From the NCBI RefSeq assembly GCF_015500095.1, contig NZ_CP062983.1, forward strand, positions 558,001 to 622,000: a DNA stretch of 64,000 nt, given 5' to 3'. The notes beneath the pieces were generated by a model, which had not been told where the DNA came from, did no database searches, and saw only the letters and a program-made list of their open reading frames with translations. The position numbers and the translations under genes are program-made. The DNA is from Phototrophicus methaneseepsis (GTDB lineage: Bacteria > Chloroflexota > Anaerolineae > Aggregatilineales > Phototrophicaceae). This document shows, in pieces, positions 42,808 to 54,198 of the stretch (position 1 is its first letter; each line of letters begins with the position of its first letter).

Positions 42808-45800
42808 ATGGCCGATACGTTTAATATTTCCCAGGCATTTGTTTCTTATTCGAGGCGCAATAAGCTTTTTGTCCAACGATTAGAAAAAGCGCTCAATGAC
42901 CACGGATTAGAAGTCTGGGTTGATTGGGAAGACATCCCCCCCAGTGCGGATTGGTGGCGGGAAATCCAGGCCGGGATTGCCGCTGCGGATAACTTCATCT
43001 TCATCATTAGCCCGGAAAGCGTCACGTCAGAAGTTTGCGCCCGCGAAATTGAATACGGCGTCGAGACGCACAAACGCTTCATCCCCGTCCTGTTAAAAGA
43101 AGTCACCGACCCAACCCATCAAGCCCTGATTCCACCGGCCATCAACACGCCTAACTGGATTTTCTTCAGGGAACAGGACGACTTCGACGCGGCTGTCGAT
43201 ACGCTCGTGGAGACGATCCAGACTGACCTGCAACATGTGCAGGCACATACGCGCTTCCTGGTTAAAGCCCGCGAATGGGATTCTCATCAGCGTGATAACA
43301 GCTACCTCCTGCGCGGTACGGAAGTGCAACTGGCGGAAAACTGGCTGATCCATGCTGAAGAAGAACGTCCGGCACCGTCAGAATTACATCGCACCTACAT
43401 CCTTGAAAGCCGCCGCGCCCAGAATGCCCGCCAGCGCACGCAGCTTATCAGCGCCCTGGTGGCACTGGTGGTCTCTGTGGTGCTGCTGGTCTTCGCTGTC
43501 GTCCAGACGCTTAACTTGGATGAGCGAAACGAAGAACTCGCAGAACAGATTACCATCAGCGAAGCGAACCTGAGGCGCGCTCGCAACACACAATCACTCT
43601 TTTTGACGACCCTTTCCGATCAAGAATTGGCCCAGGGCAACGGGCAATCTGCCCTGCTGTTGGCCCTGGAATCCATGCGCTTTATCAATAACGGCATCTA
43701 TCACATCCAGAGTTACGAAGCCCTGACTGCCGCTATACTCAGCCCCGTGCAGGAGGTGGCCGTACTGCGCCAGAACGGTCAGGCGATGACCGTCACAGGC
43801 TGGGATACCAGCGGCACGCGCTTACTCACCTCCGGGGATGATGGCACAGCACGCCTTTGGGGTGCAGATGGCGCACTCATCCAGACGTTCCGCCATGCAG
43901 CGGAAGGCGTTAGCGTCCAGGCAGGCTGGAGCGCGGATAATCTGCGCGTCTATACCTGGGGGGGTGATGAAGCCACCATCTGGTCTATAGAAGGCGTGGA
44001 ACTGGCTCGCTTAAACCATGAAGGCGACCAAGTGACGCGCGTCACCTGGCGCAGCGATGGCAACCGCATCATGACAATTGCCTTGCCAACGGCGGATTGC
44101 ACAGACGAATGCACCTATATCCTGCGCGTGTGGAATGCGGATGGCACGCTACGGGGCATCTATGACACAGCCCGCGCGCGAACAGTGCCAGAAGTCAGTT
44201 GGAATGAGGATTGGTCGCGGGCGGTCGTCACGGGTACGAGCGGCTTCGTGGTATTAGATGACGCGCTGGAACCTGTTTCCAGCCACAGCGGGGCTATCGG
44301 TTCAGGCACAGACTGGAACGCCGCCGGGGACCGTTACATTACCCAGCCGACGTTCACCACAGCGGCTTCATTATGGGGGACAGATGGGAATGTTCTGGCT
44401 GAATTGAGCGGGGCCAGGAGTGCCCGCGACGTCACATTCAGCCCAGACAGCCGTTTTTCGCTGGCATGGAGCGGCGAAATCGTCAGCTTCTGGGATATGT
44501 CTGGCGAGACGACTTTTACTACACCACCGCCAGAGGGCACCCGCTTTGCATCCGTCTTTTGGCTACCGGGTGAAGCCGCAGAAGCCGCCTTGCTAGCCCG
44601 CGATGCCTCTTGTGCGAGTGGCGATGTTTGCACCTTTACCCTGCAAATGGTCAGCCCCAATGGTGAAGACGTCACAACCATCACCTTTGAAAGCGAACTC
44701 GGCGCGGCCAGCGTCACGCCGAACCCGGCAGGCGGGCAAATCCTCGTTAATGCCTGCAGCGCTGTGCGCCTGTTCAACCTGCGCGGCGACCTGATGCAGA
44801 CAATCCCCATCCCTACCGGGCAGCCCACTACCTGCGTTGGCGTCTGGAGCGATACAGGCGAACATCTCTATGTACAGTGGGGGCCAGTCGTCAGCCTGTG
44901 GCGGGCCGATGGCGCTCCGGTTGATACGCTTGAACATCCCTTCCTAGCGAGCGATACGCGCTGGGTGGCTGATGGCACGTTGATTGCCGTCACCAGCCCC
45001 ACAGCAGAGACGCAAATCTGGGATACCAACGGCGACCGCGTCCTCAACTTCGACTACGGGGTGGCTGCGCAGCCATTGGCCTTCAATGACAGCCATACCC
45101 ATGTCGCTGTCCCCACAGCACAGGGCGTTGTCCATCTCTGGCGGATGGTCGATACAACCGAGCCAACGCTCGATCTGACAGTATGGGATGGGCTGGTATG
45201 GAGCGAAGATCGTAGTTTGGTGCTCACATGGCGCGATGATACGCTCTATCTTTGGCAGACCGACGGCACGCGCCTGGGTACGCTCAATGATGGGCTGCCT
45301 ATCGCTGATGCCGTCTTCAGCGATGACAACAGCGAAGTCTTGTTTGTCGATAACAGCCCTACCAATTGCGAGACGGATTGCAGCTATCGCGCGCGTGTGT
45401 GGGATACGACAACGGGCGCGGTCACAGCCAGTTATGAGCATACCGTCCCCCTGGCAGAAGCAGATTGGAACGCTGACGATACGCGCATCATCGTGGAGAC
45501 AGCCCGCCGCCCCAACTGCCGCAATGTCTGTAATACCAAGCTCGTCTTGCTGGATGATGCTGGCGCACCCTTGATTGACCAACCCATTGACCATACCAGC
45601 ACAGAAGATGCCCAGATTTACGAAGACCGCTTTATCGTAGCCGTTGCGCGCAGCGGCACCAACAACATCAGCACCATTTACGATACAGCCGGCACGCCCC
45701 TGGCACAGATCACCGATGCTAACCCGGTGCGATCTTTGCAATTCACGGAAAGTGACGATTTCGCTGTGACAGCGACTGGCGTAACGCGCTCCCTGGTACA

Positions 45801-46665
45801 ATTATGGCGGATACAGCCAGACGCCTGGGAACTCGTTGCGACGCTCAGCGCTGGCGACCCCATCAATACCAGCGGCGACGTCAGCCTGTTGAGCGGTGAC
45901 CGCATCATGACGATTGATAATGCCTCTACAGGCTGTGATATATGCGATTCTGACGTCATCGTATGGGATACCCTTGGGCAAGCACTCTTGCGCCTAGAGC
46001 ATACAGATCGCATCAGCGGGGCAGTATATAGCCAGACCTCTGAGCGCATTCTGAGCTATACGAGTGATGGTTTGCTCACCATATGGGATGCCGCAACAGG
46101 CGAGAACCTCATCCAGATACCGCACGAGACAGCCATCGACAGCGCCCAATGGAGCCCGGACGGCACGCAAATCCTGACCCTAACAGATGATGATCGTCTG
46201 GTTTTGTGGCAGGCCAGCGGCGAGATGGTCTTCGTGGCATCTCTGCCAGAAGGCATCATTAGTGCCTCGTTCAGCACCAGCGGGCAGTACATCGCCGCAT
46301 GGAGTTGGGATAAAACTATCCATATTTGGGATAACACTGGGGATATACAGAGCGTGCTGGCGTCTCAGGAGATTGTCTCAGGCGTCTGGTCAGAAGAAAG
46401 CGATGTGCTGTTCACATCAGCCGATAGCGGCGAACTGCGTCTCTATGCGGTCGATGGCCTGGAACTGGCGGCAATGCACCTCAGCGAAGAGCCTACGCAG
46501 TTCTTCCTGACTGAAGATGGCGCACACGTCATCACCAATGGCAGCGATTTTGGTCAGCGCTGGCTTGTTGATCTGCCGCAGCTCCTGGCGTTAGGGCAGC
46601 AGCTCGCTGTCCGGGACCTCAACGAGGGCGAGCGGCAACAGTTCTTCCTATTTGATGGGCAGTAA
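42808..46665 (+). CDS. TIR-transmembrane-WD40 giant protein with blade cysteine pairs
   Basis: This 1,285-residue protein has an N-terminal TIR domain (about 7-140: AFVSYSRRNKLFVQRLEKAL, IISPESVTSEVCAREIEYG). Glu80 is in the usual position of the NADase glutamate. A linker, one membrane helix (about 213-233), a short coiled coil and a helical segment (TLSDQELAQGNGQSALLLALESMRFI) follow. From about 300 to 1,270 come roughly 20 WD40-type repeats, probably several propellers. Close cysteine pairs recur just before the WD strand: 431/435, 602/608, 854/858, 904/908, 1043/1046. With TIR in the cytoplasm the propellers would be outside, where such pairs could be disulfides. An immune or signalling role is inferred. 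Confidence 0.85.
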   Translation: MADTFNISQAFVSYSRRNKLFVQRLEKALNDHGLEVWVDWEDIPPSADWWREIQAGIAAADNFIFIISPESVTSEVCAREIEYGVETHKRFIPVLLKEVTDPTHQALIPPAINTPNWIFFREQDDFDAAVDTLVETIQTDLQHVQAHTRFLVKAREWDSHQRDNSYLLRGTEVQLAENWLIHAEEERPAPSELHRTYILESRRAQNARQRTQLISALVALVVSVVLLVFAVVQTLNLDERNEELAEQITISEANLRRARNTQSLFLTTLSDQELAQGNGQSALLLALESMRFINNGIYHIQSYEALTAAILSPVQEVAVLRQNGQAMTVTGWDTSGTRLLTSGDDGTARLWGADGALIQTFRHAAEGVSVQAGWSADNLRVYTWGGDEATIWSIEGVELARLNHEGDQVTRVTWRSDGNRIMTIALPTADCTDECTYILRVWNADGTLRGIYDTARARTVPEVSWNEDWSRAVVTGTSGFVVLDDALEPVSSHSGAIGSGTDWNAAGDRYITQPTFTTAASLWGTDGNVLAELSGARSARDVTFSPDSRFSLAWSGEIVSFWDMSGETTFTTPPPEGTRFASVFWLPGEAAEAALLARDASCASGDVCTFTLQMVSPNGEDVTTITFESELGAASVTPNPAGGQILVNACSAVRLFNLRGDLMQTIPIPTGQPTTCVGVWSDTGEHLYVQWGPVVSLWRADGAPVDTLEHPFLASDTRWVADGTLIAVTSPTAETQIWDTNGDRVLNFDYGVAAQPLAFNDSHTHVAVPTAQGVVHLWRMVDTTEPTLDLTVWDGLVWSEDRSLVLTWRDDTLYLWQTDGTRLGTLNDGLPIADAVFSDDNSEVLFVDNSPTNCETDCSYRARVWDTTTGAVTASYEHTVPLAEADWNADDTRIIVETARRPNCRNVCNTKLVLLDDAGAPLIDQPIDHTSTEDAQIYEDRFIVAVARSGTNNISTIYDTAGTPLAQITDANPVRSLQFTESDDFAVTATGVTRSLVQLWRIQPDAWELVATLSAGDPINTSGDVSLLSGDRIMTIDNASTGCDICDSDVIVWDTLGQALLRLEHTDRISGAVYSQTSERILSYTSDGLLTIWDAATGENLIQIPHETAIDSAQWSPDGTQILTLTDDDRLVLWQASGEMVFVASLPEGIISASFSTSGQYIAAWSWDKTIHIWDNTGDIQSVLASQEIVSGVWSEESDVLFTSADSGELRLYAVDGLELAAMHLSEEPTQFFLTEDGAHVITNGSDFGQRWLVDLPQLLALGQQLAVRDLNEGERQQFFLFDGQ

Positions 46666-46935: not shown

Positions 46936-48168
46936 ATGAAACACAAGTACACATTCACACGCCGCGACTTTCTGAAGATCACAGGGGCCAGCTTCGTAAG
47001 CATGGCTGCCAGCGGCCATATGTGGATTGCTGTACCACGCGACACAGACCAATCGCCAGAACAGCCCACAGGCCCCAACAGTCGCGTTTACCTCCACACA
47101 TATGATCCCGCCGATACCCTGACAAGCGATGCTGTCCGTCAGACGATGCTCTCCGTCAGCGATTTAAGCTGGCTGAAGGCAGGTGATTCTGTTTTTGTGA
47201 AGGTCGCCAGCAATTCCAATTATGCGCCGCCTTCTGTGACGTCCCCCGCCGTGTTGGAAGGTGTCGTCAGCTTATTAAAAGAAGCAGGCGCGGGCACCGT
47301 TTACGTCGGCGATATGAGCGGGGCGCAGTTTGTGCGCCACCTGGCAACAGAGACGATTGGCTCCACCCGCGAGAATATGCGCCAGAACGGCCTGCTCGCT
47401 GCTGCGGAAGCCACAGGCGCGACGATTCACTGCTTTGAAGAAATCCCCTTTGAAGAAGCTTACATCCCCGGTGTACCGATGATCGACCACCACTGGGGGA
47501 CTGATTTACAGGTCGCTGAAATTCTGGATCGTGTCGATCACATCATTAATCTGCCGCGCCTGGGCAAACACGTCCTGGCAGGGGCATCCTTAGGGATGAA
47601 AAACGCCATTGGCTGGATCAGCGACCACAGCCGTATGGTGCTCCATCGTGATGCGGATACCTTCCATGAAAAGATCGTTGAGGTCAATGCCATCCCGCAG
47701 CTTGCCGATAAGATGCGCATGACCCTGACCTTGGTTGATCAGGCTCTGACCACCTACGGACCGGATGCCGGTTATCATTTGCCGCTGGCACAGCCGATTA
47801 TCCTGGCCTCTGATGATGTCGTCAGTCATGACCAGGTAGCGCTGCTCTCTCTGCTATGGGCACGCACCCAGACGAGCGCGGAAGCTATCGCCGCAGACCC
47901 TTACCCAGATGAATCGAACGGCCTCAACTGGTGGTTTGTACGCGTCACCTGGGGCGAAGAAGCCGCTGCGGCTTACCAGGACTTGCAGGCATATGATGCG
48001 CTGATTGAGCCGGATACCCCCACGCACATCAATCTGGCGTGGCAGAGCCTGCGAGGTGGGCGGCCCGCCGCTATTGAAGTATTGCCAAGCGGCCTGGCTA
48101 TCAACGAGCGCCTGGCAGCGACTCTAACACAAAATGAGAACCTGGGCGTTGTCCTGCCCAGCCTGTAA
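46936..48168 (+). CDS. Tat-exported DUF362 protein
   Basis: This 410-residue protein has a twin-arginine signal (TRRDFLKITGASF), so it is exported folded, probably with a cofactor. The mature part matches DUF362: VFVKVASNSNYAPPSVTSPAVLEGVVSLLKEAGAGTVYVGDMSG and the conserved INLPRLGKHVLAGASLGMKNAIGWI. The two 4Fe-4S motifs of some DUF362 proteins are not present. It is the first gene of a rightward block with three exported cytochromes. GGGACGACC precedes the ATG. The function of DUF362 is not established. Context suggests a role in redox or cytochrome maturation outside the membrane. Confidence 0.82.
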   Translation: MKHKYTFTRRDFLKITGASFVSMAASGHMWIAVPRDTDQSPEQPTGPNSRVYLHTYDPADTLTSDAVRQTMLSVSDLSWLKAGDSVFVKVASNSNYAPPSVTSPAVLEGVVSLLKEAGAGTVYVGDMSGAQFVRHLATETIGSTRENMRQNGLLAAAEATGATIHCFEEIPFEEAYIPGVPMIDHHWGTDLQVAEILDRVDHIINLPRLGKHVLAGASLGMKNAIGWISDHSRMVLHRDADTFHEKIVEVNAIPQLADKMRMTLTLVDQALTTYGPDAGYHLPLAQPIILASDDVVSHDQVALLSLLWARTQTSAEAIAADPYPDESNGLNWWFVRVTWGEEAAAAYQDLQAYDALIEPDTPTHINLAWQSLRGGRPAAIEVLPSGLAINERLAATLTQNENLGVVLPSL

Positions 48169-48341
48169 TCCCGTCATCGTGGCCTGACTGAAGTAGGGTT
48201 TCGCCAAAATCCAGCTATGGCATCGAACGCCAGCCCGGACAGTATCCACGGAGCGACCTGGCTATGGGCCCGCAGACCTTACCTTATAGGACGCGGCCTA
48301 CCTAATTACATACAATAAGACCGACTGAGTAACACATCGCG

Positions 48342-50033
48342 ATGTCTTCAAAACAGAAAGTGACCTTTCTCATTCCGGTGATCGCCATTGCAGGACTATT
48401 CGGCATCATCTTGCTCACGCCACAGGACGAACAAATCATTGCACGCGGGATTGTCCATGATGAATCCGGCCCTTTGGAAGGCGCTGTCGTCCGGCAGCGA
48501 GGCAGTTCCTATTACGTCCTCACGAACAGCGATGGCTACTTCGAACTCCCCCTACCAGAGAACAACGGCGCGCAAATCACAGCCTGGATACCAGGGACTT
48601 TCATCGGCGGCGGCGATGTTGAAGGCTTCCTCAATCCAGAAGGCGATATGCTCTTCCTGCATCATTACCCCGTGACCGATAATTCAGAGTATCCATTCGT
48701 TAGCCCCACAGATCCAGATAATGAGACGGCTTGCGCTAACTGCCACGCAGATCATACCGGCGAAAATGATAGCGCCATGCCCTTTGACGAATGGCAGCAA
48801 GATGCCCATGCAACGGCGGCGACCAACAAGCGATTTTTATCGCTTTACAATGGCACCAACTTAGCCGGCGAAGCAGGCCCGGCTACCCTGTTCATCTATG
48901 AAGCCTTGCAAACGGCCAATAAGCCGGTCGCGCCTTCGCTGGGCCAGGATGCCGTCGGCCCAGGGTACAAGCTGGATTATCCAGATCAGAGTGGCATCTG
49001 TGCGACCTGTCACACGCCCATCCTCGCCATAGATACACCCTACCACGCGGACCCCAATACAGCGGTTGGGGTTGCTGCGGAGGGCATCTCTTGCGACTTT
49101 TGCCATAAAATCCAGGATGTGACCCTGCGCCCAGATGGTAAGCCGGACCCTGGCTTACCGGGTGTGCTATCTGTCCAATTTTTGCGCCCACAAGCCGGGG
49201 AACAACTCTTCATCGGGCCGCTTGATGATACCCCTGGCGAGGATATTTATGCCGCTTCGCAGGATGAAAGCCAATTCTGTGCTGCCTGCCATAGCGGGCA
49301 GTTCTGGGATGTGCCTATCTACGACAGCTTTGGCGAATGGCTGGCAAGCCCTTACAGCATGGGCGATCAGGCCCAAACCTGCCAGGATTGCCATATGCCC
49401 CATGTTGGTGTGACGTCATTCGTACAGCTCCCACCAGATGACACCACCATCCTCGCCCCGCGCGACCCGGAGACTATTTTTAGCCATCGGATGCCTGGTG
49501 CTGCCGACGAAGCCTTGCTCGAAAGCGCCGCTACGCTCACCGTGGAGGCAAAGCCCACGGGCGATCAATTGCACGTCACCGTCCGCGTGACCAATACCGG
49601 GGCGGGACACCACATCCCAACGGATAACCCCCTGCGCAATATGATCTTGCTGGTCCAGACAGTAGATGGCGAAGGCCAACCGCTGACGCTTCTCGATGGG
49701 CCGACGATCCCAGCATGGGGCGGCGTAGGCGACCCAGCAGAAGGCTACTATGCAGGCCAGCCAGGGATACTTTATGCTAAAATCCTGGCTGATCTTTTTA
49801 CGGATGAGATGCCTACCTATGCTTATTGGCGGCCTACCCGCCTGGTGAGCGACAATCGCATCGCGGCCCTGGCGACAGATCAATCGTCGTACACATTCGC
49901 CTTGCCTGCGGATCAAGATGTGACAGTTGATGTACAGCTTTATTTGCGCCGGGCGTACATAGAACTGATGGACCTGAAAGATTGGGATACAACAGATATG
50001 TTGATGACCCAGCAGATCGTGAGAGTGCCTTGA
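48342..50033 (+). CDS. Five-haem c-type cytochrome with carboxypeptidase-regulatory-like domain
   Basis: This 563-residue protein has an N-terminal membrane helix (about 7-27) acting as anchor or uncleaved signal. A carboxypeptidase-regulatory-like beta-sandwich follows (ARGIVHDESGPLEGAVVRQ...TNSDGYFELPLP, about 35-75). Five CxxCH haem sites then come, with first Cys at 131, 220, 251, 313 and 347. The C-terminal 190 residues are a beta-rich domain without haem. The haem spacing resembles cytochrome c554/NapC-nitrite-reductase-like multihaem proteins, but I cannot assign a substrate. It ends by overlapping the next cytochrome gene, so the two are coupled. It should face the outside of the membrane. 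Confidence 0.88.
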   Translation: MSSKQKVTFLIPVIAIAGLFGIILLTPQDEQIIARGIVHDESGPLEGAVVRQRGSSYYVLTNSDGYFELPLPENNGAQITAWIPGTFIGGGDVEGFLNPEGDMLFLHHYPVTDNSEYPFVSPTDPDNETACANCHADHTGENDSAMPFDEWQQDAHATAATNKRFLSLYNGTNLAGEAGPATLFIYEALQTANKPVAPSLGQDAVGPGYKLDYPDQSGICATCHTPILAIDTPYHADPNTAVGVAAEGISCDFCHKIQDVTLRPDGKPDPGLPGVLSVQFLRPQAGEQLFIGPLDDTPGEDIYAASQDESQFCAACHSGQFWDVPIYDSFGEWLASPYSMGDQAQTCQDCHMPHVGVTSFVQLPPDDTTILAPRDPETIFSHRMPGAADEALLESAATLTVEAKPTGDQLHVTVRVTNTGAGHHIPTDNPLRNMILLVQTVDGEGQPLTLLDGPTIPAWGGVGDPAEGYYAGQPGILYAKILADLFTDEMPTYAYWRPTRLVSDNRIAALATDQSSYTFALPADQDVTVDVQLYLRRAYIELMDLKDWDTTDMLMTQQIVRVP

Positions 50034-51937
50034 AGCAACTTCTATATGGATGGACTGCGATTGTGCTCGTGATGGGGGCGCTCCTGCTTTACACCACGGG
50101 CATCTTTGCGGAAGATACAGCTTCGCGTACCGCATCACAAACGGCCTTCCCCACCTATGAAGGTATTCACGAATTTGCGCCGACAGCGACGCGAGAAATC
50201 ACACCTGTTCCGCTGGCGTTGACGCCCATCAGCACGCCACAGCCCTTACCCGGCTTACCCGCCCTGACCAACAGCCAATCGAGCAAGATGCTCGCCATCA
50301 CGGGTGAAACGCTCATCACCGTGAACCCGGATAGTGATTCTGTAACCTTGGTCAACCTGGGCGACAAAACCATCATGACGGAAATCAGCGTCGGCGATGA
50401 CCCGCGTTCTGTAGCGATCACACCAGATGGCACCACAGCCCTGGTCGCGTTACGTGGTGATAACGCCGTCGCCATCGTTGACCTGGCAGCGCAGTCGTTA
50501 GATCGTATCGTGAGCGTCGGGCATATGCCCTATGGGGTCGTCACAGATGGGCGGCGCGTCTTTGTGAGCTGCTTCGGCGACGATACGATTGTCGTGTTCG
50601 ATCTGCAGACGGATGAAGAATTGTATCGTCTTGCAGTGCCGGATGCCCCTGCGGCTATGGTGCTGGGTGAAGATTGGCTGTTAAGCACACATTTTTACAG
50701 CGGGCTGGTAACCGTCATCAACGTATCGCGGACACCTGTCGTGGTCGGCTCAGCCAATGTCGAGCCAGATGGTGAGCTTGCCGGGGCCATTGTGCTCTCG
50801 CCGGATGGTGAACGCGCTTATATTCCGCAGCAGCGTACAGGCCTTTCTTTGATTTCACTGCAATACATGCAGGATTGGTTCCCTGTCGTCAGCGTGCTCG
50901 ATATGGCGACGATGACGGGCGACCGCGACGCTCGTATGACGATTTCCATGATCGACAGCGAAACGGCCAACATGCCCTTCGACGCCGCCTTCGATGATCG
51001 GGGCGAAACACTCTATGTTGTGCTGGCGGGGAATGATGCCATCGTGGCGATTGACCTAGAGAATGAGAGCGTCCTGGCGCGCGTGCCCGTCGGGGCCAAT
51101 CCGCGCGGGATCACGATAGATGGCGCGTATGTCTACGTACTCAACACGCTGGATGGCACGCTTTCCGTGATCGACACAGCTAGCCTACAGGTCGTCGATA
51201 CCCTGACCGTGACACAAATCCCGATGGACCCCATACTGCTGCAAGGGAAAATCTTATTCCACCGAGCCGATGCCCCCATTATGAGCGATGGGGCTATCAG
51301 TTGTGCAACCTGCCACTTTGACGGGGGCAATGATGGGCGCACCTGGATTAACTTCCGCAGTGGTCCCCGCAACACGCCTTCCTTAGGCAATCTATCCCAG
51401 ACGGCACCCTTCCATTGGGCGGGCGATATGCCCCAACTACAGGACAGCATCGAAGATACAATTCGCCATGTCATGCTCGGCGATGGCCTGATCAATGATG
51501 GTGAAGCCTTCGACGCGACCATTGAACAGGATGATGCAGGCCGCTCCGCCGACCTGGATGCACTTGTCGCTTATGTCGAATCATTGGAGCCATGGCCGAG
51601 CCCTTATCTGGCAGATGATGGCACCTTAAGCGACGCTGCACAGCGCGGTATGCAGATGTTCATCAGTGGGTCGCCCGGTTGTGGCTGCCATGTCCCCCCG
51701 CTCTATACGGACCTCCAACTGCATAACCTGACAGGGGCGGCTTTCTCCCTGGAAGTCTTCGAAGATTTCGATACGCCAACGCTGCGCGGCTTATGGGCCT
51801 CCGCGCCTTATATGCACGATGGCGTGGCCCAGACGTTGGAAGAAGTCCTCACGCGGACGGACCCCGTCCATAGCGTGGCCGACAACCTCACAGAGCAGGA
51901 ACTTGCTGATCTGGTCGCCTTTTTATTATCCTTATAA
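50030..51937 (+). CDS. YVTN beta-propeller fused to di-haem cytochrome c peroxidase/MauG-like domain
   Basis: The likely start is the TTG at 50030, which overlaps the stop of the previous gene (TTGA), giving 635 residues. An N-terminal helix (about 4-24) leads through a Thr/Pro-rich linker to a YVTN/NHL-type propeller (about 80-410), with repeats such as SVGDDPRSVAITPDGTTALVAL and VPVGANPRGITIDGAYVYVL. The last 220 residues look like the di-haem peroxidase/MauG family: SCATCHFDGGNDGR (Cys425), RNTPSLGNLSQTAPFHWAGD, and MHDGVAQTLEEVL. The expected second haem site is CGCH at 551-554, one residue shorter than CxxCH. It is exported and presumably docks with its neighbours. Confidence 0.85.
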   Translation: MKQLLYGWTAIVLVMGALLLYTTGIFAEDTASRTASQTAFPTYEGIHEFAPTATREITPVPLALTPISTPQPLPGLPALTNSQSSKMLAITGETLITVNPDSDSVTLVNLGDKTIMTEISVGDDPRSVAITPDGTTALVALRGDNAVAIVDLAAQSLDRIVSVGHMPYGVVTDGRRVFVSCFGDDTIVVFDLQTDEELYRLAVPDAPAAMVLGEDWLLSTHFYSGLVTVINVSRTPVVVGSANVEPDGELAGAIVLSPDGERAYIPQQRTGLSLISLQYMQDWFPVVSVLDMATMTGDRDARMTISMIDSETANMPFDAAFDDRGETLYVVLAGNDAIVAIDLENESVLARVPVGANPRGITIDGAYVYVLNTLDGTLSVIDTASLQVVDTLTVTQIPMDPILLQGKILFHRADAPIMSDGAISCATCHFDGGNDGRTWINFRSGPRNTPSLGNLSQTAPFHWAGDMPQLQDSIEDTIRHVMLGDGLINDGEAFDATIEQDDAGRSADLDALVAYVESLEPWPSPYLADDGTLSDAAQRGMQMFISGSPGCGCHVPPLYTDLQLHNLTGAAFSLEVFEDFDTPTLRGLWASAPYMHDGVAQTLEEVLTRTDPVHSVADNLTEQELADLVAFLLSL

Positions 51938-51959
51938 GCTTAGTCACAAGCTTAGTCAC
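51936..51959. repeat. 12-bp perfect tandem repeat at a stop codon
   Basis: AAGCTTAGTCAC occurs twice in direct succession (51936-51947 and 51948-51959), starting within the stop codon of the preceding cytochrome gene. Confidence 0.8.
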
Positions 51960-52014
51960 ACTGAGCATTCCCAATCATCAACATTTACTCAATCTGTCCA
52001 TAGAACAAACCGGT

Positions 52015-54198
52015 ATGATGATGCCTCAAATCCGAACCAAGCAATTCAAGATACGCACGCTCATTCTGCTGCTCGCTTTAATCAGCCTGATGGTACCTAC
52101 CCTGGCACAGGACGAGGATGAAGGTCCCCAGGCGACAGGGGGCCAACCCTGGGACCTGAAAGAAGCCACCCAGGATGGGTTATTCATCTTCTATGACGCG
52201 CCCGCCGGGGCATCGACAACGGGCAAGCCCGTCGATGTCGGCGACTTTGACGGAGATGGATGTGGTGATCTCGCTATCACCGGGCAAAATGCCGCCCATG
52301 CGCTCGATGGTGTGTGGCGCGGTAGTGCGGGGCACGTGCGCATTGTGATGAACCTATGCAATATCACAGGGCAGATTGCTATCGACGATGTGCCAGCAGA
52401 CCAGACTGTATTCACGATCTTTGGCGCCTATGCTGGCGATATGGCTGGCACAGAGACGTACATCGCGGATTTCAATAACGATGGCTACGATGACTTGCTC
52501 TTCAGCGCGCAGAACAGCGACGGCCCCGTACAGCAGCGCTCCAACGCCGGGGCCGCGTATGTGCTCTTCGGCAGTGAGGACTTTGCCGAGCATGGTGATA
52601 TTGATCTGCGCACCCTCCCAGAGGACGTGATCGTCTTTTACGGAGCTTCCGCAGAAGACCGCCTGGGCCTATGGGTTGAAGGCGGCGACTTCGACGGGGA
52701 TGGCTACCATGATGTGCTGGTCGGGGCCAATCAGGCAGATGGCCTCAACAATGAACGCATCAACGCGGGCGAAGTATGGATCCTCTATGGCAGCGAAGAT
52801 ATGGCCGAGACATACGGGCAGGTCACGGACCTGGCAGAGCCGCCGGAAGATGCCACGCGCATCATCGGCGCGGATTATGATGATTTGATGGGGTCCTGTG
52901 TTTGGGGCGCTGATCTCAACGGCGATGGCTACGACGACGCTATCGTCAGTGCGGGCCTATGGCGGGCATCGTCCGGCGTGGGCGGGCTCTCCTTTGGCGG
53001 TGCGGATGGCCCTGCCAACCAGCGCTATAACAGCGGCGAGAGCTTCGTCATCTTCGGCGGAGAGGACCTGCGCGGCCAAGTCATCGACCTGGCAGAGAAA
53101 ATCGACGAAACAGGCGCGCCCATCGACGACAGCGTGACAGTCATCTATGGTGCTGATGCAAACGACCTGCTCGGCGAAGAAATCGCCACAGGTGATATGG
53201 ATGGTGATGGCATTTATGATCTCATCCTGGGCACGCTGGTGGGCGATGGCGCTGAAAATAACCTCGATGAAGCCGGAGAAGCCTGGATTATTTACACCCA
53301 TGCGCCTTTTGAGGGGCAGATGTTCGATTTAGCCGATGTAGACCCGGCGCGTGCTGTTGTCATCTTCCCAGATCAGGCTGATAGCAAAGCGGGCGACACA
53401 TTACGTGTGGATGACATCGATGGCGATGGCATTGCGGACATGTTCTATGGCGCGCCAGATTATGACGCAACGGGCTATGATGGCGTCCTACGCCCCAATA
53501 CTGGTATGTTGGCGGTCATCTTCGGCGAAGAAGGCGGCATTCCGCATGATGACGGGCGTATCCTGCTGTTCGACCCGCCCGCAGACCTGCGCGTGAAGGT
53601 GATTATCGGCCCGGAAGCCAACGATATGATGCCTTATGCCCTGGCAATCTATGATGTTGATGGGGATGGCGTCATTGACATCATACCCAACGCCATGGGT
53701 GGCGATGGTGCCCATAACGACCAGGTCAACGCCGGGGAAATCTTCGTCATTAACGGGGCTGAATTTTTATCTGATGCGCATAGCTACCAGGTCACAGCGC
53801 CAGAAGCAGACCCTGATGCGACCCCAGCATCAACGACAGAGGTAACCTCGGCCTATGCCACGGCAACCCCACACCTTGAAGCAACAGCCGTTACTTCCAA
53901 TGTGGGCGATGTCGAACAGGGACAGCGCAACTATGAAGAAACATGTGCCGGATGCCATGGCTTTACCGGGGAAGGCGTACCCGGTCTGGGCCTGCCCCTG
54001 GTGACGTCGCCACTGGTGCTTTACGCTTCCGATGCGGATTTACTCGCCTTCCTGCGAGAAGGACGCCCAGCAGATCACCCAGATAATACAGTCGGTATTT
54101 CCATGCCAGCCAGCGGTGGCCGCCCGGATTGGACCGATGAAGACCTGATGGACGTCATCGCTTATTTGCGCCAGATGCGTGACGAGTACGACGACTAA
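52015..54198 (+). CDS. Integrin-alpha-like FG-GAP propeller fused to C-terminal cytochrome c
   Basis: This 727-residue exported protein has a signal segment (about 12-32, ending near LAQDEDE). About seven FG-GAP/VCBS-type repeats (about 45-590) carry calcium-binding loops such as DFDGDGCGD, DFNNDGYDD, DFDGDGYHD, DLNGDGYDD, DMDGDGIYD, DIDGDGIAD and DVDGDGVID, as in integrin-alpha propellers. A linker leads to a class I cytochrome c domain (about 630-720) with haem site CAGCH at 644-648. A probable axial Met lies near VGISMPASG (about 697). FG-GAP propellers usually bind ligands or calcium, and cytochrome c moves electrons, so the fusion suggests a surface redox partner. It ends the four-gene exported block. 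Confidence 0.85.
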   Translation: MMMPQIRTKQFKIRTLILLLALISLMVPTLAQDEDEGPQATGGQPWDLKEATQDGLFIFYDAPAGASTTGKPVDVGDFDGDGCGDLAITGQNAAHALDGVWRGSAGHVRIVMNLCNITGQIAIDDVPADQTVFTIFGAYAGDMAGTETYIADFNNDGYDDLLFSAQNSDGPVQQRSNAGAAYVLFGSEDFAEHGDIDLRTLPEDVIVFYGASAEDRLGLWVEGGDFDGDGYHDVLVGANQADGLNNERINAGEVWILYGSEDMAETYGQVTDLAEPPEDATRIIGADYDDLMGSCVWGADLNGDGYDDAIVSAGLWRASSGVGGLSFGGADGPANQRYNSGESFVIFGGEDLRGQVIDLAEKIDETGAPIDDSVTVIYGADANDLLGEEIATGDMDGDGIYDLILGTLVGDGAENNLDEAGEAWIIYTHAPFEGQMFDLADVDPARAVVIFPDQADSKAGDTLRVDDIDGDGIADMFYGAPDYDATGYDGVLRPNTGMLAVIFGEEGGIPHDDGRILLFDPPADLRVKVIIGPEANDMMPYALAIYDVDGDGVIDIIPNAMGGDGAHNDQVNAGEIFVINGAEFLSDAHSYQVTAPEADPDATPASTTEVTSAYATATPHLEATAVTSNVGDVEQGQRNYEETCAGCHGFTGEGVPGLGLPLVTSPLVLYASDADLLAFLREGRPADHPDNTVGISMPASGGRPDWTDEDLMDVIAYLRQMRDEYDD

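Follow-up and report, generated by a model that had tools for sequence, protein, structure and literature searches.

Among the closest known relatives of the locus considered here are the beta and gamma subunits of hydrazine synthase (fused in Scalindua; chains B and C of 5c2v), in which a seven-bladed propeller precedes a dihaem MauG-like domain. Fused beta-gamma homologs occur in other phyla as well, where clades I to III are distinguished, FG-GAP genes flank them, and the clade I proteins include a fused multihaem part; all three clades carry an alpha homolog. The same study gives the roles of gamma-His144, at the active haem, and gamma-Cys165, the third haem I-binding Cys (PMC12758564). 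A second point of reference is the Geobacter ext cluster, in which a pentahaem cytochrome (ExtKL) is encoded with Rieske, cytochrome b, and tetrahaem cytochrome c genes (PMC5877670). In a study of cable bacteria, Geobacter ExtKL and archaeal cytochrome wires are both linked to the c552-type pentahaem fold (PMC11976967).

We analyzed a 64,000-nucleotide stretch of the Phototrophicus methaneseepsis genome (NZ_CP062983.1, positions 558,001 to 622,000; GCF_015500095.1), here called the window, which contains a four-gene cluster at 46936-54198 (Table 1). We tentatively propose that the four genes encode an exported, membrane-tethered, quinol-linked redox module with the gene 3 product as its core enzyme. 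On the comparisons below, and because similar fused homologs are described in PMC12758564, we regard the cluster as a further form of the hydrazine-synthase-beta-gamma-like clusters already known. With clades I to III it shares the fused beta-gamma protein, the Trp at the His144 position, and the adjoining FG-GAP gene; it differs from them in its separate pentahaem protein, its haem-bearing FG-GAP protein, its DUF362 protein, and, in some relatives, its bc-complex genes. The statement in the initial annotation that no named system has this gene set was therefore too strong, given the homology of gene 3 to fused beta-gamma proteins and the FG-GAP clusters already described.

Table 1. Features of the four-gene cluster, numbered from the first nucleotide of the window
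Feature	Position	Strand	Basis
Gene 1: Tat-exported DUF362 protein, RRDFLK signal, 410 aa	46936..48168	+	ORF; Pfam
Gene 2: membrane-anchored five-haem cytochrome c	48342..50033	+	Pfam, structure match
Gene 2 haem motif 1, CANCH	48732..48746	+	alignment
Gene 2 haem motif 2, CATCH	48999..49013	+	alignment
Gene 2 haem motif 3, CDFCH	49092..49106	+	alignment
Gene 2 haem motif 4, CAACH	49278..49292	+	alignment
Gene 2 haem motif 5, CQDCH	49380..49394	+	alignment
TTGA overlap, gene 3 start within gene 2 stop	50030..50033	+	
Gene 3: seven-bladed YVTN propeller + dihaem MauG/CCP domain, hydrazine synthase beta-gamma-like	50030..51937	+	
Gene 3 propeller, residues 86-398	50285..51223	+	structural match
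Gene 3 haem motif I, CATCH	51302..51316	+	Cys, Cys, His invariant (n = 33 sequences)
Gene 3 Trp463, CCP/MauG Trp position	51416..51418	+	alignment; invariant (n = 33 sequences)
Gene 3 haem motif II, CGCH (CXCH, one residue short)	51680..51691	+	
Gene 3 His614, candidate distal ligand of haem II (putative role)	51869..51871	+	invariant (n = 33)
Gene 4: FG-GAP (integrin-type) propeller + C-terminal cytochrome c	52015..54198	+	
Gene 4 haem motif, CAGCH	53944..53958	+	

The four open reading frames and the domain order originally described are all present, as is the overlap noted between the middle two genes, where the TTG start of gene 3 (position 50030) shares four bases with the gene 2 stop. 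Two domain assignments stand in part. The di-haem domain assigned to gene 3 has a CCP_MauG match and two haem motifs, but only one of these is a canonical CXXCH; the other, CGCH, had been overlooked, and it is the one non-canonical motif among the eight of the four-gene set. The carboxypeptidase-regulatory domain assigned to gene 2 is backed by the fold of the model, although its Pfam match is below threshold. A promoter scan gave promoter-like sites no more frequently than in shuffled sequences. Just upstream of the cluster (window 42808-46665) lies a gene for a large TIR-domain protein with a WD40-type propeller, which was not found beside the cluster in relatives.

Recurrence of the gene set was assessed at 17 loci with gene 3 orthologs (L072 to L088), some of which stop at contig edges. 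Genes 1 to 4 stand in the same order at nine of them (L073 to L076, L079 to L082, and L086), or ten loci with the window. Wherever the locus could be read (16 of 16), gene 4 lies directly 3' of gene 3, and among the 17, gene 2 comes before gene 3 in 12 and gene 1 in 11; L077 is without gene 2, and L083 and L087 are without gene 1. A start/stop overlap (ATGA and similar) or near-overlap recurs at the junction of genes 2 and 3 in relatives. The flanking genes vary between genomes, so the unit has sharp borders. Conservation of the gene order in other Chloroflexota had been set beforehand as a check on the grouping, and the neighbors are indeed conserved together within one taxonomic order of the phylum; this recurrence is far beyond chance. 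Gene 2 turned up in 22 of the 101 genomes searched from that order, and strong gene 3 orthologs are found in about 18 of 154 genomes.

The outer two genes are the simpler ones. The gene 1 product matches Pfam DUF362 (6.5e-32) and is 72 to 74% identical to its counterparts in two members of the family and 61 to 62% identical to those in another family. It has one Cys only, which makes an Fe-S cluster of its own with four Cys ligands impossible. A sequence search found no relative of it in the PDB, and the idea that DUF362 is lactate-racemase-like (LarA) found no support in a profile comparison (probability 0.1, both profiles being shallow). The gene 4 product has a signal peptide, FG-GAP repeats (Pfam, 9.4e-30), and a single cytochrome c domain (9.8e-9). 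Full-length or nearly full-length homologs were found in five others of the 199 genomes of the class searched, all five within the order, with identities of 54 to 74%.

The gene 3 product begins with a hydrophobic segment, and most of its orthologs have a lipobox-like LAAC or similar sequence. It matches the YncE/YVTN propeller and CCP_MauG families of Pfam (the latter at 1.9e-7 and 32.2 bits against a cut-off of 25.6), as well as models for MauG and MbnH. Against the PDB, its profile aligns co-linearly with hydrazine synthase, beta (2e-24) then gamma (2e-30), and a single-sequence search aligns likewise. In the AF2 model (mean pLDDT 83.8), the propeller superposes best on hydrazine synthase beta (5c2v_B; Z 35.5, rmsd 2.4 over 293 residues) and next best on an archaeal YVTN protein (1l0q, Z 34.1); the dihaem half is left unresolved by the structure search because propellers fill the match list.

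Gene 3 thus has the propeller-then-dihaem architecture of hydrazine synthase beta-gamma and shares with it a conserved His beyond haem motif II: His614, which like His429 and His554 is invariant in 33 sequences, aligns with a His of the gamma subunit. It is nevertheless a relative rather than a hydrazine synthase, because Trp463 occupies the position of active-haem gamma-His144, the stretch aligned with gamma-Cys165 holds no Cys, and the alpha subunit has no linked gene. Haem motif II is also CXCH in place of the synthase's motif, and the hydrazine synthase NCBIfam model scores gene 3 at 115 bits against a cut-off of 1250. The HZS_alpha family (PF18582) is absent from 9 of the 10 cluster genomes, and its single match in the window's genome lies about 2 Mb away. 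We rejected the idea of an alpha partner encoded elsewhere, as this one unlinked protein occurs in the window's genome only; it is a 582-aa single-haem protein above the HZS_alpha cut-off (L171:8050-9798). With the dihaem cytochrome c peroxidases, MauG, and MbnH, gene 3 shares the dihaem domain, the Trp, and a PYxHDG motif, but it adds an N-terminal propeller, its second haem motif is CXCH rather than CXXCH, and the usual distal Met position of the peroxidases is Thr or Ser in the cluster's orthologs.

More distant gene 3 homologs occur in other settings. In SAR202, other Chloroflexota, and Gammaproteobacteria (L090, L092 to L095, L099, L100, L104, L105, L108, L110 to L117, L120, and L123), they follow a protein of mostly 1050 to 1500 aa; the four such partner proteins tested had no Pfam match, and all 20 compared are mutually homologous. 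Single proteins that contain gene 3-like domains, and that can be as long as 2300 aa, are seen in Verrucomicrobia and others. One genome (G243) encodes, upstream of the cluster, a MauG/CCP domain fused to an UnbV/ASPIC domain (L054:125-2062).

The gene 2 product consists of an N-terminal membrane anchor, the carboxypeptidase-regulatory-like domain, a haem core with five CXXCH motifs, and a C-terminal Ig-like domain. Its Pfam multihaem matches are weak, and the haem core of the model, taken by itself, is of low confidence; residues 118-562 of that model superpose on pentahaem cytochrome c552 of Thermochromatium tepidum (5ze8) with Z 25.2 and rmsd 3.6 over 331 residues, and the Foldseek match to 5ze8 has E 8e-15. 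Five-haem core and C-terminal domain correspond between the two, whereas the anchor and the carboxypeptidase-regulatory-like domain are extra in gene 2. The five haem motifs, the Ig-like C-terminal domain, and the c552 fold place gene 2 in the pentahaem c552/ExtKL type. The model for ExtKL itself fits it very weakly at best, as the NCBIfam equivalog gives 17 bits for the window's protein and 24 to 47 bits for its relatives against a cut-off of 250.

The first haem motif varies across the gene 2 family, being CXXCH, CXXCM, or CXXCK. Among the homologs at L058, L060, L062, and L063, it is CXXCM at three loci and CXXCK at one; CXXCK is known from the NrfA nitrite reductase. A related pentahaem cytochrome from three other families of the order lies within an apparent oligopeptide-type ABC transporter operon (L066 to L070). 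At L067 it is flanked by genes for a solute-binding protein, two permeases, and an ATPase, and the others of this group have like gene sizes and order.

In one genus (g8; five genomes, L079 to L082 and L086), genes for a cytochrome b, a Rieske protein, and a four-haem (four-domain) cytochrome c come directly after gene 4, and the resulting seven-gene run (DUF362, pentahaem cytochrome, gene 3, gene 4, cytochrome b, Rieske, tetrahaem c) has gaps of at most 14 bases or overlaps. At L077 and L087 the Rieske and cytochrome b genes are divergent, and the tetrahaem gene stands after gene 4. Cytochrome b and Rieske genes are thus at the cluster in 7 of the 17 relatives, with five of the seven from one genus. 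No cluster-type cytochrome b was found in the window's genome, which has only an unlinked, distant one, or in G146, G127, and G019, and hence only some of the cluster genomes have the bc link. Three further genomes (G163, G243, and G232) have such bc genes elsewhere, and one (G250) has bc genes with no gene 2 found. The bc genes in one genus and two other genomes support an electron transfer role for the cluster.

This set resembles Geobacter extHIJKLMNOPQS, where genes for Rieske, cytochrome b, and tetrahaem c likewise accompany one for a pentahaem cytochrome of that fold family. The ext cluster, though, has a porin, a rhodanese, and 10- and 12-haem cytochromes and is without a propeller-dihaem or FG-GAP protein. 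We also considered the cytochrome b as an ortholog of ExtP and rejected this: it scores 265 bits, below the cut-off, and the match is non-specific because the range for the remaining cytochromes b in these genomes is about 200 to 280 bits; none of them reaches the cut-off, which one control genome does.

One alternative is that the pentahaem cytochrome and the two haem-bearing propellers form an extracellular electron-transfer conduit, moving electrons over the cell surface to an outside acceptor or from an outside donor. The fold of gene 2, from a family tied to metal reduction in Geobacter and compared with archaeal cytochrome wires (PMC11976967), would suit such a role, as would the export and anchoring of the proteins. 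We nonetheless consider a conduit unlikely: the annotated neighbors include neither a porin nor a large multihaem surface cytochrome, eight haem motifs with one non-canonical are all that the set offers, and in gene 3 haem I still looks like that of an enzyme, the CCP/MauG Trp being retained. The initial annotation had suggested a surface or extracytoplasmic electron-transfer machine. Its extracytoplasmic part fits well with a single conserved unit whose proteins are exported or anchored by signals, whose haem domains are conserved, and which is joined by bc genes in some genomes; the surface role is less well supported, given a core that looks like an enzyme and annotated neighbors among which no porin or long multihaem wire gene was seen. 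Likewise, electron transfer as the joint function gains backing from the bc genes. The kinship of gene 3 with hydrazine synthase beta-gamma had been missed.

An alternative that we also hold to be improbable is that gene 3 is an oxidase or maturase like MauG or MbnH, which would modify a partner protein or oxidize a small substrate and release the electrons through the cytochromes. The matches to the MauG and MbnH models and the MauG-type Trp position are in keeping with this, and the FG-GAP protein, whose gene always adjoins gene 3, could be the protein substrate. The bc genes at seven loci, however, suggest a link on the quinol side, and the closest solved relatives of gene 3 are hydrazine synthase subunits, not MauG.

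Within the dihaem MauG/CCP superfamily, marked by two CXXCH motifs, the second haem motif of gene 3 is a departure. This motif reads C-[GSA]-C-H in 14 of the 17 orthologs, as it does in the window (CGCH), the residue between the two Cys always being small (G, S, or A), and it is CXXCH in L077, L085, L087, and every further relative read. On a tree built without the motif columns, a single change accounts for this pattern, and recurrence of the motif in independent assemblies excludes a sequencing error. When 400 genomes sampled from the phylum were searched with a DNA pattern for CxCHxPPxYxD, which is narrow, only the window's genome matched, most of the genomes being from outside the order. 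Within the CXCH clade, mean identity is 75% in haem domain I, 74% in haem domain II, and 60% in the propeller. Four residues do not vary at all (n = 33): the two Cys of motif II, the proximal His, and His614, the candidate distal ligand. Hydrazine synthase has a bis-His haem at the corresponding place (PMC12607021). These observations lead us to infer that haem is still bound at CXCH, perhaps through one thioether, though its attachment may depart from the normal mode. That CXCH has instead abolished covalent attachment and left gene 3 single-haem or partly non-functional is quite improbable, for although the motif is unlike every standard one and no paper in the open literature was found to join the word CXCH with cytochrome c and heme (a weak negative), the change arose once and has been kept in 14 relatives and the window, with its Cys and His residues and the candidate distal His614 invariant, its inter-Cys residue always small, and its domain as well conserved as that of the intact haem I. 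A dedicated haem lyase for the motif was considered and rejected, as CcsA/ResC-type genes number 2 to 3 per genome with or without the cluster; the annotated parts of the cluster neighborhood contain no haem lyase gene.

We return to the quinol-linked redox module as the preferred reading. Its core would be the propeller-dihaem protein of gene 3, from the hydrazine synthase beta-gamma and MauG/CCP superfamily; its substrate site would probably be haem I, with electrons entering at haem II. The products of genes 4 and 2, possibly in a complex with it, would pass electrons to or from gene 3, and the DUF362 protein would be accessory. Where bc genes have joined the cluster, the most likely route would run from quinol through cytochrome b, the Rieske protein, and the four-haem cytochrome c to the module. 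With quinol-derived electrons arriving by this route, the module would serve as a terminal reductase, its acceptor being a small oxidant, for example peroxide or a nitrogen oxide. The likeness to hydrazine synthase, the odd haem motif, and the bc genes of some relatives together indicate that the cluster probably encodes a respiratory enzyme, so far unstudied. Less probable is the full combination: a bc-linked respiratory enzyme of Chloroflexota, of common stock with hydrazine synthase beta-gamma, that acts on a small nitrogen or oxygen compound and carries a natural CXCH-attached c-type haem.

To our knowledge, the tolerance of cytochrome c maturation for a shortened motif has so far been probed only with engineered variants. 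A stable natural CXCH site, if that is what gene 3 has, would put this tolerance to the test, and haem attached there would come as a surprise to cytochrome specialists. If the enzyme exists as proposed, it would also be a bacterial relative of hydrazine synthase whose propeller-dihaem core could be studied without the alpha subunit, and, if it works as proposed, it would give widespread environmental Chloroflexota an extra respiratory branch.
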